Origin: an uncultured Acidimicrobiales bacterium
Lineage (GTDB): Bacteria; Actinomycetota; Acidimicrobiia; Acidimicrobiales; SHLQ01
Length of the DNA: 64,000 nt
Direction: 5' to 3'
Assembly (NCBI GenBank): GCA_937934655.1
Contig: CALGZB010000070.1
Span: 1-64,000, forward strand
Positions 55,704 through 63,903 of this stretch are shown piece by piece. A model generated the notes under the pieces. The model did no database searches. It worked only from the letters and a program-made list of their open reading frames with translations, and was not told the origin of the DNA. How positions within the stretch are numbered: the first letter of the stretch is position 1; every line of letters begins with the position of its first letter. Both the position numbers and the translations under genes were made by a program.

Positions 55704-56309
55704 ATGCGACCAACCCCTTTTGCTGCCGGCGCCCTCGCTGCCGGCCTTTTGCTCTCTGCTTGTGGGGGCGGCGGTGAAACGACAAGTACCGGCGCAACAC
55801 CTGATGCCGGAACCGAAACCAGCTCTGGTGCGAGCCCGGCCGACCTGGCAGAGGAAAACGCCCAATCCTTACAAAGCACCGACGACGGCCGCACCAGCGA
55901 GGTTCTCAATATCGCCGATGGGTCAATCACCAGTCTGCAAGAGGCCGTCACTGGCGACCGTCCCGTATTGCTCTGGTTCTGGGCACCTCATTGACCGACC
56001 TGCCGGCGCGAAGGCCCGGCCGTTGAGCAGTTTGCTCAAGCCAACATCGACAAGATTCAGATCATCGGCATCGGAGCCCAGGACGACTTCGGTCAAGCCC
56101 AGGACTTCTTGGGCGACACCGGCGTCGCCACGCCTGAGATGCTGTACGACCCAACCTTCAACACGTGGCGGGCCTTTGGTGTCACGACAAACTCCCAAAT
56201 GAAACTGCTCACCCCAGACCTCGACGCGAGCTCTGACCTTCTGTTCGGCTTCGGCGAGGATGAGCAAGCAGCCATCCTTGACGCGCTGCCAGCCTTTGCC
56301 CCGCAGTAA
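55704..56309 (+). CDS. Thioredoxin-like lipoprotein, candidate selenoprotein (TGA at 55992-55994 read as Sec)
   Basis: Lipobox MRPTPFAAGALAAGLLLSACGGGG; VLLWFWAPH[TGA]PTCRREGPAVEQFAQANIDKIQIIGIGAQDDFGQAQDFLGDTGV...FAPQ continues in the same frame to TAA 56307-56309. Confidence 0.75.
56002..56020 (+). promoter_or_regulatory. Candidate bacterial SECIS hairpin
   Basis: GCCGG-c-GC-GAAG-GC-CCGGC: 7-bp stem with one bulged C, GAAG loop; first loop G (56010) is 16 nt after the TGA. Confidence 0.45.
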
Positions 56310-58905: not shown

Positions 58906-59019
58906 GACTATCTCGGTGCGAAGCTGGGAATGAAACGGCCGTACGATGAGTTCTTTATCTCGTACTTAGGTCTCAACGCCTCGGTCCCCAAACCCACAAC
59001 TCGCCAGGAGGCCCTTCCA

Positions 59020-59412
59020 GTGGCAACGATCGAACTCAACAAGAACAACTTTGAAGAAACCATCAACCGAGACGGCGTGGTCCTTGTCGACTTCTGGGCC
59101 GAGTGGTGTGGTCCGTGCAAGTCCTTCGGGCCGGTCTTTGAAGCCACCTCCGAGGAGAACCCCGACACCATCTTCGCAAAGGTCGACACCGAAGCCGAGC
59201 AAGACCTCTCCGGAGCGCTCGGGATCCAATCGATCCCTACCGTCATGATCTTCCGCGACGGTATCCAAGTGTTCTCCCAGCCGGGTGCGCTTCCCAAAGA
59301 TGCTCTCGACGATCTCCTCGTCCAAGTCAACGGACTCGACATGGATGAAGTCCGCAAAGAGGTCGAAGAACACATCGCAAGCCACCAACACGGCCCCGAC
59401 TGCAACCACTAA
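59020..59412 (+). CDS. Thioredoxin with His-rich C-terminal tail
   Basis: VLVDFWAEWCGPCKSFGPVFEATSEEN...IQSIPTVMIFRDG; tail HIASHQHGPDCNH; GTG start. Confidence 0.9.
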   Translation: MATIELNKNNFEETINRDGVVLVDFWAEWCGPCKSFGPVFEATSEENPDTIFAKVDTEAEQDLSGALGIQSIPTVMIFRDGIQVFSQPGALPKDALDDLLVQVNGLDMDEVRKEVEEHIASHQHGPDCNH

Positions 59413-60207: not shown

Positions 60208-61323
60208 TTAGCGCTTGTAGTTGGGGATCACGAATGGCAGGTCGGAAACATGGCACGCCACTCGTTTTCCGCGCACGTCGGCCTCGAGTTGGGTTCCAAC
60301 GACTGATGCTGCAGCCGATACGTACCCCATGGCGACGGGACCATCGACCGATGCCCCAAAACCGCCACTGGTAACGACGCCGACCAATTCGCCATCGGCG
60401 TTGAAGAGTTCGTTACCTGGCCGAATCGGCCGTCGCTGAGCGGTTCCGATACCAACCCGGCTGCGGGTCGGTCCGTCGGCCTGCTGCTGCGCCACAACGT
60501 CGGCTCCGGGATAGTCGCCGGCCTCGCGGCGCCGTTTTGGAACCGCCCACATCAGGCCAGCTTCAACGGGTGTGGTTTCTTCATCAATGTCGCTGCCGTA
60601 CAGGCAAAGGCCAGCTTCGAGACGAAGACTGTCGCGGGCGGCGAGCCCGGCGAACTCAACGCGTTCGTCGGCCAAGAGCTTTTCGGTGACGCCAACCACC
60701 ATGTCGGCCGGCAAGGCCAGCTCGAACCCATCTTCGCCCGTGTAGCCGCTGCGGGTGATTCGGATATCAGCAGAACCAGCAGGCGTGGTGATTGCGACGA
60801 TGCCGCCCGTCATGAACCCAAGGCCGGATACATCAATACCGAGGTCGGTAAGAACCGCTTCTGACTTTGGGCCTTGAAGCGCAATGAGATGCAGGTCGTC
60901 GCGTTCGATGACTTCGACACCGGCAAGGGCTTGCAGGTGAGCCACGTCGTGGGCAACTCGCGAGGCGTTGACAACAACACTCACTCGTCCATCGGGCATC
61001 GCCCAAGCGATGAGATCGTCGAGGATGCCACCTTGGTCGTTGGTGAAAAACGTGTACCGAAGCTTGTTCTCGGCGAGCGTGGTGATGCCGCCCGGGACCA
61101 ACGTTTCGAGCGCTTCAGCTGGGGCGTCGCCGACGAGGTCGACGACACGCATGTGCGACACATCGAAGATCGACGACGATTGACGCGTATGAAGATGTTC
61201 GGCGATGGCACCTTGGCCGTCATAGGACAATGGCATCGAGTAGCCGGCGAATGGCCCGAACTTTGCGCCCCGGGTTTCGTGAAGCGCATGTAAGAGCGTG
61301 GTCTCGAGTTCGGCGTCAGCCAT
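60208..61323 (-). CDS. gcvT: Glycine cleavage system T protein (aminomethyltransferase)
   Basis: TTLLHALHETRGAKFGPFAGYSMPLSYDGQGAIAEHLHTRQSSSIFDVSHM...RSGYTGEDGFELALP. Confidence 0.93.
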   Translation of the reverse strand: MADAELETTLLHALHETRGAKFGPFAGYSMPLSYDGQGAIAEHLHTRQSSSIFDVSHMRVVDLVGDAPAEALETLVPGGITTLAENKLRYTFFTNDQGGILDDLIAWAMPDGRVSVVVNASRVAHDVAHLQALAGVEVIERDDLHLIALQGPKSEAVLTDLGIDVSGLGFMTGGIVAITTPAGSADIRITRSGYTGEDGFELALPADMVVGVTEKLLADERVEFAGLAARDSLRLEAGLCLYGSDIDEETTPVEAGLMWAVPKRRREAGDYPGADVVAQQQADGPTRSRVGIGTAQRRPIRPGNELFNADGELVGVVTSGGFGASVDGPVAMGYVSAAASVVGTQLEADVRGKRVACHVSDLPFVIPNYKR

Positions 61324-62164
61324 CAGTGTCTCCGTGAACGTACTGCCAGCCGAAGCGACCCTTAATGCAAAGGTTGCCCCACGTAACCGAGTGGTCGTCG
61401 GGGGAAGTGACCTTCACGATGCGCTCGTCCTGGGTGTGAAGCTCAAGGTTACAGCCGACACCGCAATACGAACAGACCGTGGTGGTCACCGTCTGGTCTT
61501 CCGGGCGCCAGTTGGCCACCTGGCGAAGATCAAACTCGGTTTTGAACTGCAGGGCATTGGTAGGACAAACCGCCACGCAGTTCCCGCAGTAAACACATGC
61601 CGAGTCAGGCAGGGTTACATCGAACTCGGTTGCGATGCGAGCACCGAACCCGCGGCCCGACATCGAGATGGCGTACGTGTGCTGAGCATCGTCGCCGCAG
61701 GCCGAGACGCACTTGTAGCAAAGGACACATTTGTCATAATCGCGAACGTAGAGATCATCTTGGATCTTGATCTCTTCGTTCATCCGCTCCGGGTTTTCGT
61801 AGCGGTCGGGTTGCGCGCCGTACTTAGCGCTCCACTCGTTGAGCTCGTCAGCCTCGCTCAGGTCCACACCAGATCCCAGGAACTCAAGAACCATCTTGCG
61901 ACTGTGGTTCACGCGATCCGAATCGGTGCTAACAACCATTCCTTCTTCGACCGGTCGCGAACACGACGGCACGAGTGTGCGCGACCCTTCGAGCTCGACC
62001 ACACAAACCCGGCAGGCGTTGACCGGCGTCAGGTTAGGCCCGTAACAAATCGTTGGCGTCTCGACTCCGGCCGCGGTGCATGCGTCGAGAATCGTAGATC
62101 CCTCGGGCACCGCTACATCGTTGCCGTCGACCGAGATGGTCACCGCTACTTCGGTACTAGTCAT
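61316..62164 (-). CDS. NuoG/FdhA N-terminal-type Fe-S subunit of formate dehydrogenase
   Basis: 2Fe-2S CYGPNLTPVNACRVCVVELEG; CVLCYKCVSACGD and CVYCGNCVAVCPTNAL; CSYCGVGC...LCIKGRFG, then stops. Confidence 0.85.
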   Translation of the reverse strand: MTSTEVAVTISVDGNDVAVPEGSTILDACTAAGVETPTICYGPNLTPVNACRVCVVELEGSRTLVPSCSRPVEEGMVVSTDSDRVNHSRKMVLEFLGSGVDLSEADELNEWSAKYGAQPDRYENPERMNEEIKIQDDLYVRDYDKCVLCYKCVSACGDDAQHTYAISMSGRGFGARIATEFDVTLPDSACVYCGNCVAVCPTNALQFKTEFDLRQVANWRPEDQTVTTTVCSYCGVGCNLELHTQDERIVKVTSPDDHSVTWGNLCIKGRFGWQYVHGDTDG

Positions 62165-63903
62165 TGGTTTGCTCCGATCAAGCCCAGAGCGAGTGCGCTC
62201 TTGATTGCCGATGCAGCCGTGTGGCCGAGACCACAGATCGACGCATCGGCCATTACTTGCACCATGTCTTCATGAAGAACCCGCTTCTCGTCGGGCATTG
62301 GTTTGTGGCCGATTGCCACGATCATCTCGTGCTGGCGAATTGCACCAACCCGACATGGCACGCATTGTCCGCAGGATTCGTTCTTGAAGAACTCGGCGAT
62401 GCGTTGGCAAATGTCAGCCATGTCGTCGTCGGTGTTGAACACCATGACCACACCGGAGCCCAGCGTGGTGCCGGCTTCGCGTGTGGCTTCTAGTGTCAGC
62501 GGCAGGTCCATGGAGTCGCTCGTGACAAAGCTGCCCGCTGCCCCACCTAGGAGCACTGCCTGCACCTCACCAGAAGCGCCTCCGGCGGCCTCGATGATCT
62601 CGCCAAGGGTTGCACCGAATGCGTGCTCGTACAGCCCTGGCGCTCCGACACGGCCTGATACGCAGAACAGGCGAGTGCCTGGCGACCGTTCGGTGCCGAT
62701 CGACCGGTATGCCGCTGCGCCATCGAGAACGATAGGCAGCACATTGAGCAGCGTCTCAGGGTTGTTGATGACGGTGGGCTGGTCGAAAAGTCCGTTGGTG
62801 GTGGGGAACGGCGGCTTGTTGCGTGGCTCGCCCCGGAAGCCCTCGAGTGAGTTAAAGAGTGCGGTCTCTTCGCCGCAGATGTAGGCACCGGCGCCGCGTC
62901 GCACCTCGAGGTGAAACTCCTTGCCACTTCCCGCAACGTCCTCGCCAAGCAGACCAGCATCGCGTGACGCCATGATGGCGTTCTCGAGACGCCCGGTTGC
63001 CTGCGGATACTCCCCGCGAATGTAGATCCAGCCGTTGGTGGCACCCGTCGTGACCGCGGCAATGGTCATTGCCTCAATCAAGGCGAACGGGTCGTGCTCC
63101 ATGACCATGCGGTCCTTGAAGGTTCCTGGTTCGCTCTCGTCGCAGTTTGCCACAATGTGCTTCTGGTCGCCGTCGGCGTCGCGAACCGCCGTCCACTTGA
63201 TGCCGGTAGGAAACGCTGCGCCACCTCGACCTGAAAGACCAGAGTCGGAGATGGCAGCGAGGACGCCATCGGCGCCGAGTTCGAGGGCCTTGGTGAGCGC
63301 CTCGTAACCACCATGCTCACGGTACGAATCGAGGCTGGTCGGGTCGACAACACCGATCCGCTGGAGAAGCCGAAGAGAGTCGTCGCCCGCTTGAGGAAGG
63401 ACGAAGGCGTCATCATCGGCCGGAACCACATCGGGGCGCTTGCGCCCCTGGATGAAGACCGCCGGTGGTCGTTCGCACTGGCCAAGGCACGGGCTTCGAT
63501 GCACGTGTTTCCCTTCGGCCTCGAGCGACGCGATGAGATCGTCGGCGCCGTCGATGCGGCATGCGGGGTCGATGCAAACGTGTACGACGTCGTCGTCGTG
63601 ACCGGGTTCGGTGTCGACTCGGAACATCTCATAGAAGCTGGCCACGCCGTAGGACTCGGCTGGCGGCACCTGAAGGACTTCTGACAGGTAGTTCAGGCCG
63701 CCCGGGCTAATCCAGCCCGACTCCTTCTGCAAGGCATGTAACGCCGGTAAGAGGAGGTGGCGCAGTCCGCGGCGGCGACTGGCCCCGCCACGAACAATCC
63801 GTTCGCCCTCGATCGTGAGGGCGCTGTTCTCGCCAAGCGCAAGATCGATGGCGTTACGTTCACCGTCGTTCGCGATGGCGTCGGTGAAATGAAGGTCGGC
63901 CAT
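62161..63903 (-). CDS. NuoE-NuoF fused diaphorase subunit of NAD-dependent formate dehydrogenase
   Basis: NuoE-like CIDPACRIDGADDL...SPCLGQCERPPAV, then NuoF GLSGRGGAAFPTGIKW, CDESEPGTFKDR, GAGAYICGEETAL, ESCGQCVPCRVG. Confidence 0.92.
   Translation of the reverse strand: MADLHFTDAIANDGERNAIDLALGENSALTIEGERIVRGGASRRRGLRHLLLPALHALQKESGWISPGGLNYLSEVLQVPPAESYGVASFYEMFRVDTEPGHDDDVVHVCIDPACRIDGADDLIASLEAEGKHVHRSPCLGQCERPPAVFIQGRKRPDVVPADDDAFVLPQAGDDSLRLLQRIGVVDPTSLDSYREHGGYEALTKALELGADGVLAAISDSGLSGRGGAAFPTGIKWTAVRDADGDQKHIVANCDESEPGTFKDRMVMEHDPFALIEAMTIAAVTTGATNGWIYIRGEYPQATGRLENAIMASRDAGLLGEDVAGSGKEFHLEVRRGAGAYICGEETALFNSLEGFRGEPRNKPPFPTTNGLFDQPTVINNPETLLNVLPIVLDGAAAYRSIGTERSPGTRLFCVSGRVGAPGLYEHAFGATLGEIIEAAGGASGEVQAVLLGGAAGSFVTSDSMDLPLTLEATREAGTTLGSGVVMVFNTDDDMADICQRIAEFFKNESCGQCVPCRVGAIRQHEMIVAIGHKPMPDEKRVLHEDMVQVMADASICGLGHTAASAIKSALALGLIGANQ

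Follow-up and report, generated by a model that had tools for sequence, protein, structure and literature searches.

The DNA analysed here (the window) is a stretch of 64,000 nucleotides from an uncultured Acidimicrobiales bacterium. On its plus strand, positions 55704–56309 hold a candidate gene for a UxxC lipoprotein of the thioredoxin fold, 201 residues long, with a predicted selenocysteine (Sec) at position 97 and a cysteine at position 100. The frame runs from ATG to TAA and its sole interruption is a TGA at codon 97 (55992–55994), in the context VLLWFWAPH-U-PTCRREGPAVEQF. The first-pass annotation had likewise read one frame past this TGA to the TAA ending at 56309, and that course is borne out. 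The active-site motif, WFWAPH-U-PTC, is a CxxC of the DsbF/redoxin type with U in the place of the first Cys. The resolving Cys100 is encoded by TGC (56001–56003), a codon that is TGA in the homologues of the UxxU clade. The signal peptide (55704–55763) contains the lipobox LLSA-C with Cys20 at 55761–55763; this lipobox, already proposed from the N-terminus, is present on reading the sequence and is common to the orthologues. The alignment with the FGVTQQP segment of DsbF and the homologue survey place Ser164 (56193–56195) at the cis-proline position of the thioredoxin fold.

The gene sits in a block that is conserved within the genus, and the neighbourhood comparison found no conserved partner gene beyond the genus. 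The same block includes an ordinary cytosolic-type thioredoxin (WCGPC; 58930–59412, plus strand), 2.6 kb downstream. On the minus strand, a short FdhA/NuoG-type N-terminal protein (61316–62164) carries 2Fe-2S, 4Fe-4S and Molybdop_Fe4S4 domains without the molybdopterin catalytic domain. Its gene shares an ATGA overlap with a GcvT-like gene (60208–61323, minus strand) and comes after a NuoE-NuoF fusion (62161–63903, minus strand); the FdhA-type and GcvT proteins have counterparts of high identity in two congeners. A Sec codon at the end of the formate dehydrogenase-like protein was considered and rejected: the protein stops just past the Fe4S4 domain, before the Sec region of FdhA, and its stop is the ATGA overlap with the next gene.

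With Cys substituted for U, the 201-residue protein passes the Pfam gathering scores of Redoxin (7.8e-11), AhpC-TSA and Thioredoxin; the Redoxin (PF08534) score is 42.4 bits against a gathering score of 26.6. The closest solved relative by sequence is Mycobacterium tuberculosis DsbF (3ios; 1.6e-13), in which WFWAPWCPTC aligns with WFWAPHCPTC. The AlphaFold2 model (pLDDT 89.5) shows the thioredoxin fold in full; among PDB structures it best matches DsbF 3ios and MPT53/DsbE, and then ResA. The Pfam matches, the model and the purifying selection 3' of the TGA agree with the earlier description of the downstream part as an intact thioredoxin fold.

Relatives of the gene occur in 59 of 60 related genomes searched in six frames, and nearly all of the strong matches are interrupted by TGA. 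Among 80 distinct homologues that bear the motif, the column of the first Cys is filled by TGA in 71 and by TGC or TGT in nine, so the TGA does stand at the first Cys of the redox motif, as had been claimed. In nine of the 71 TGA homologues, both catalytic positions are encoded by TGA (UxxU), and homologues with as little as about 30% identity still have the TGA column. When the sample was widened to 248 genomes of the phylum, no match at E<=1e-15 lacked an in-frame TGA. The codons of two homologues from outside the class (L147 and L151) were inspected and the TGA is the first-Cys column in both; the hairpin sequence described below is nearly unchanged in L147. In homologue G006, a second recoded codon (TAG) was considered and discarded, as the TAG appears, as far as the sequence is readable, to be only its terminator. 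Selection acts on both flanks of the interruption. The pN/pS ratio to the nearest orthologue is 0.20 upstream and 0.14 downstream of the TGA (Nei-Gojobori, with synonymous sites near saturation), well below 1 and thus indicative of purifying selection on both sides.

The assembly behind the window is fragmented (308 contigs), and a single base separates TGA from TGT and TGC; both points would fit an interruption due to an error in sequencing or assembly, or to a premature stop in a decaying pseudogene. On the other hand, TGA occupies this column in 71 homologues from many genomes and is thus not peculiar to one assembly. One of these homologues comes from a 99%-complete genome in a single 4.8-Mb contig, and assembly error is therefore not the cause of the TGA. 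Given also the purifying selection downstream and the conserved hairpin, the probability of error or decay is negligible, and the initial judgement that decay was less likely than recoding can be put more strongly: it is effectively excluded.

A hairpin of the bacterial SECIS type, an element that the first-pass annotation had proposed to look for, occupies positions 56023–56039 of the plus strand (UUGAGCA-GUU-UGCUCAA, 17 nt). In bacterial SECIS elements a G is expected within the first two loop positions and the loop 16–37 nt after the UGA (PMC13188914); the window loop, GUU or AGUUU, lies 34–35 nt after the UGA. The isolated 17-nt stem has a stability of −6.7 kcal/mol and the 51-nt stretch one of −20.3, against a criterion of −7.5. 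Two hairpin types were compared among the TGA homologues. Group A, the group of the window gene (WAPH-U, 26 sequences), has the stem YGAGC(A)/(U)GCUCR with an AGUU loop 34–35 nt after the UGA, and group B (WAPW-U and relatives, 43 sequences) has a CUGC-GGUC-GCAG hairpin with its loop 26 nt after the UGA. Both were judged against a synonymous null, that is, codon-resampled sequences encoding the same protein (2000 resamples for stem pairing). The core stem is fully paired in 16 of 26 group A sequences (null mean 0.5, maximum 4 in 2000) and in 35 of 43 group B sequences (null mean 12, maximum 21), and the GGUC loop is found in 42 of the 43 (null mean 5). Over the hairpin stretch the mean z is −3.21 in group A versus −0.20 in the Cys homologues, and 96% of group A sequences reach p<=0.05. 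Changes on both sides of the stem affect four of six pairs in group B and two of seven in group A, both far above slid controls. The group A hairpin overlaps the VEQFA codons and its conservation could be partly protein-driven, an effect for which the synonymous null controls. Neither type occurs in the nine Cys homologues.

In the UxxU genes, the distance to the single GGUC hairpin would be 26 nt for the first UGA and 17 nt for the second; the published range (PMC13188914) covers both values. By eye, a few members of group B (L044, L113 and L151) seem instead to use the more distal of the two hairpin positions. Two WAPH-U paralogues on one contig (L087; G034:C69:22000-30935) have a hairpin of the GCGCAGUU type, with C-G in place of an A-U pair, a compensatory change. 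A putative GC-rich hairpin closer to the UGA (56002–56020, plus strand) was not retained as a conserved element of group A: the proximal 30 nt are suggestive (mean z −1.66 against the synonymous null), but the register varies among homologues. Rfam gave no match within the 64-kb window. A covariance-model search of the own genome recovered the hairpin at E=1.1e-17 with a model that includes the window sequence. The own-genome search for new selenoprotein families with models of both hairpin types returned the five TGA paralogues described below and otherwise weak matches (E 0.02 or worse), none of which is put forward as a new family.

All four components of the Sec machinery, selA, selB, selC and selD, for which a search had been advised, are present in the genome. 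The tRNA-Sec (selC) scores 71 bits and ARAGORN assigns it the anticodon UCA; SelA scores 401 bits, SelB 286 bits in a full-length frame of 573 residues that includes the C-terminal region, and SelD 363 bits, itself with a TGA in HGAGUGCK. A strong TGA homologue goes together with selA in 29 of 30 related genomes, the lone exception being 73% complete, while the other 30 related genomes split into 16 with selA and 14 without (Fisher p=1.7e-4 over the 60 genomes, a value that treats related genomes as independent and serves as a guide only).

Opal-decoding tRNAs exist in some bacteria, and Cys fills the column in part of the homologues. The UGA might thus be read as another residue, either Cys by a tRNA-Cys with a UCA anticodon or Trp. 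The complete Sec machinery, the association of TGA homologues with selA and the SECIS-type hairpin beside the codon all argue against such a reading, as does the use of TGA as an ordinary terminator elsewhere in the window, for example in the ATGA overlap at 61316–61323; it is very improbable. With the conserved TGA column, the hairpin, the machinery and the fold established computationally, the gene is predicted with high confidence to encode a selenoprotein in which UGA codon 97 specifies selenocysteine. SelB and Sec-tRNA(Sec) would read the codon, guided by the hairpin 34–35 nt downstream. The product would then be exported and lipid-anchored at Cys20, and its thioredoxin fold of the DsbF/TlpA type would carry the selenol-thiol pair U-P-T-C in place of CxxC. 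Such a protein would work as a selenol-disulfide oxidoreductase outside the cytoplasmic membrane.

The genome contains five TGA members of the family: the window gene, two with WAPW-U (on contigs C163 and C265), one with WAAH-U (C215) and one of the UxxU form (C300). The cis-proline is kept in eight of the nine Cys homologues and in 42 UxxC proteins (L122 being counted as Pro by reading). Ser takes its place in the window clade, which comprises 20 UxxC proteins and one Cys homologue, and the UxxU clade has Arg in seven of nine members and another residue in two. The tree unites the UxxU proteins in a single group (SH-aLRT 99) and the Ser proteins in another (SH-aLRT 91). Two Sec clades have thus lost this proline, which is near-universal in thioredoxin folds: the window clade has Ser instead, and every UxxU protein has Arg or some other residue. 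A Cys homologue (L011, JAPPJC010000027.1) that lacks both the cis-proline and the hairpin is nested with the Ser clade and is a possible Sec-to-Cys reversion; on its contig, a run of N lies beside a partial repeat of the gene. In two genomes (G010:C253:3700-6413 and G011:C76:42673-44599), a window-type UxxC gene is divergent from, and adjoins, one or two UxxU paralogues; these divergent pairs suggest that the two forms may work together.

The most likely function of the window protein is that of a predicted extracytoplasmic selenol-disulfide oxidoreductase. Its closest solved relatives in sequence and fold, DsbF and MPT53/DsbE (1lu4), share the WFWAPxCPTC motif and are oxidants in vitro (PMC3853704), which is consistent with a selenoprotein that forms disulfides as the mycobacterial enzymes do. 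These proteins differ from the window protein in having CxxC and, in DsbF, the cis-proline, where the window protein has UxxC and Ser, and substitution of this proline abolishes the turnover of DsbA (PMC13269488). No VKOR was matched in the genome, which is 90% complete in 308 contigs and in which an absence is weak evidence. The genome encodes two CcdA proteins, each adjoining a Cys-type TlpA. Couples with Sec in the active site are usually more reducing. The favoured role, at roughly even confidence, is a reductive or peroxide-reducing one, since VKOR was not found, two CcdA are present and the cis-proline is replaced; the oxidase role is rather unlikely. The fold and exported location resemble those of the ResA/CcmG/TlpA lipoproteins that pair with CcdA. 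Unlike these, the Sec gene does not adjoin CcdA, a search for genomic linkage to CcdA or to a Dsb partner came up empty, and the protein falls far below the DsbE and ResA cut-offs of NCBIfam (35.3 bits against 123 for DsbE/CcmG, TIGR00385).

The cis-proline may prevent metal binding to CxxC, and peroxiredoxins have Arg at its position (PMC2757866). Its loss in two Sec clades might therefore have enabled an active site that binds a metal or an Fe-S cluster; the alignment shows no extra conserved metal ligand and no metal-handling neighbour is seen in the conserved block, and such a role is improbable. At this position the window protein has Ser and not the peroxiredoxin-type Arg. On a broader and tentative reading, the change from Cys to Sec could have let this actinobacterial family drop the cis-proline at least twice, to Ser in the UxxC window clade and mostly to Arg in the UxxU proteins, where it would mimic peroxiredoxins. 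The outcome would be selenol or diselenide enzymes anchored at the surface, whose chemistry would be peroxidase-like or metal-binding in place of classical disulfide exchange.

Selenoproteins of related type are already listed in the passages of PMC9312934 and PMC13188914 that bear on them, namely a UxxC 'redoxin family protein' (PF08534) and UxxC and UxxU proteins of PF00578. The redoxin family selenoprotein of Table 1 in PMC13188914 has the same Pfam family and UxxC motif as the window protein; the likeness to its representative, HEU0032618.1, is by family and motif description only. Compared likewise by description only, the Prx-like thiol:disulfide oxidoreductase selenoproteins of PF00578 include UxxC and UxxU forms, both also found in the window family, and AhpC-TSA is above the Pfam cut-off in the window protein too. 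Its best domain differs, being Redoxin, and its UxxU clade has Arg or another residue at the cis-proline position. No paper on selenoproteins of Acidimicrobiia turned up in the literature searched. According to one review, selenoproteins are seldom retained by aerobes, whereas an earlier survey counts 40% of Sec users as aerobic (PMC5029168); because the two differ, this rarity was given no weight.

UxxC selenoproteins of the redoxin family are thus catalogued and the window gene is a further instance. Those passages of PMC9312934 and PMC13188914 make no mention of lipoprotein anchoring, an actinobacterial radiation with several paralogues or the loss of the cis-proline. What goes beyond the known is the set of five TGA paralogues, UxxU included, within a large and unusual actinobacterial radiation, together with the putative lipoprotein form; the two alternative hairpin positions and loop types in one family (AGUU at +34/35 and GGUC at +26); and the loss of the cis-proline in two Sec clades, whose functional meaning we infer. 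Automatic annotation splits or shortens such genes, so a set of exported redox enzymes of actinobacteria can easily go unnoticed. Within a single fold, the family naturally sets Cys, Sec and double-Sec active sites side by side, some with the cis-proline and some lacking it, and comparing them would directly test the separate contributions of the cis-proline and of selenium.
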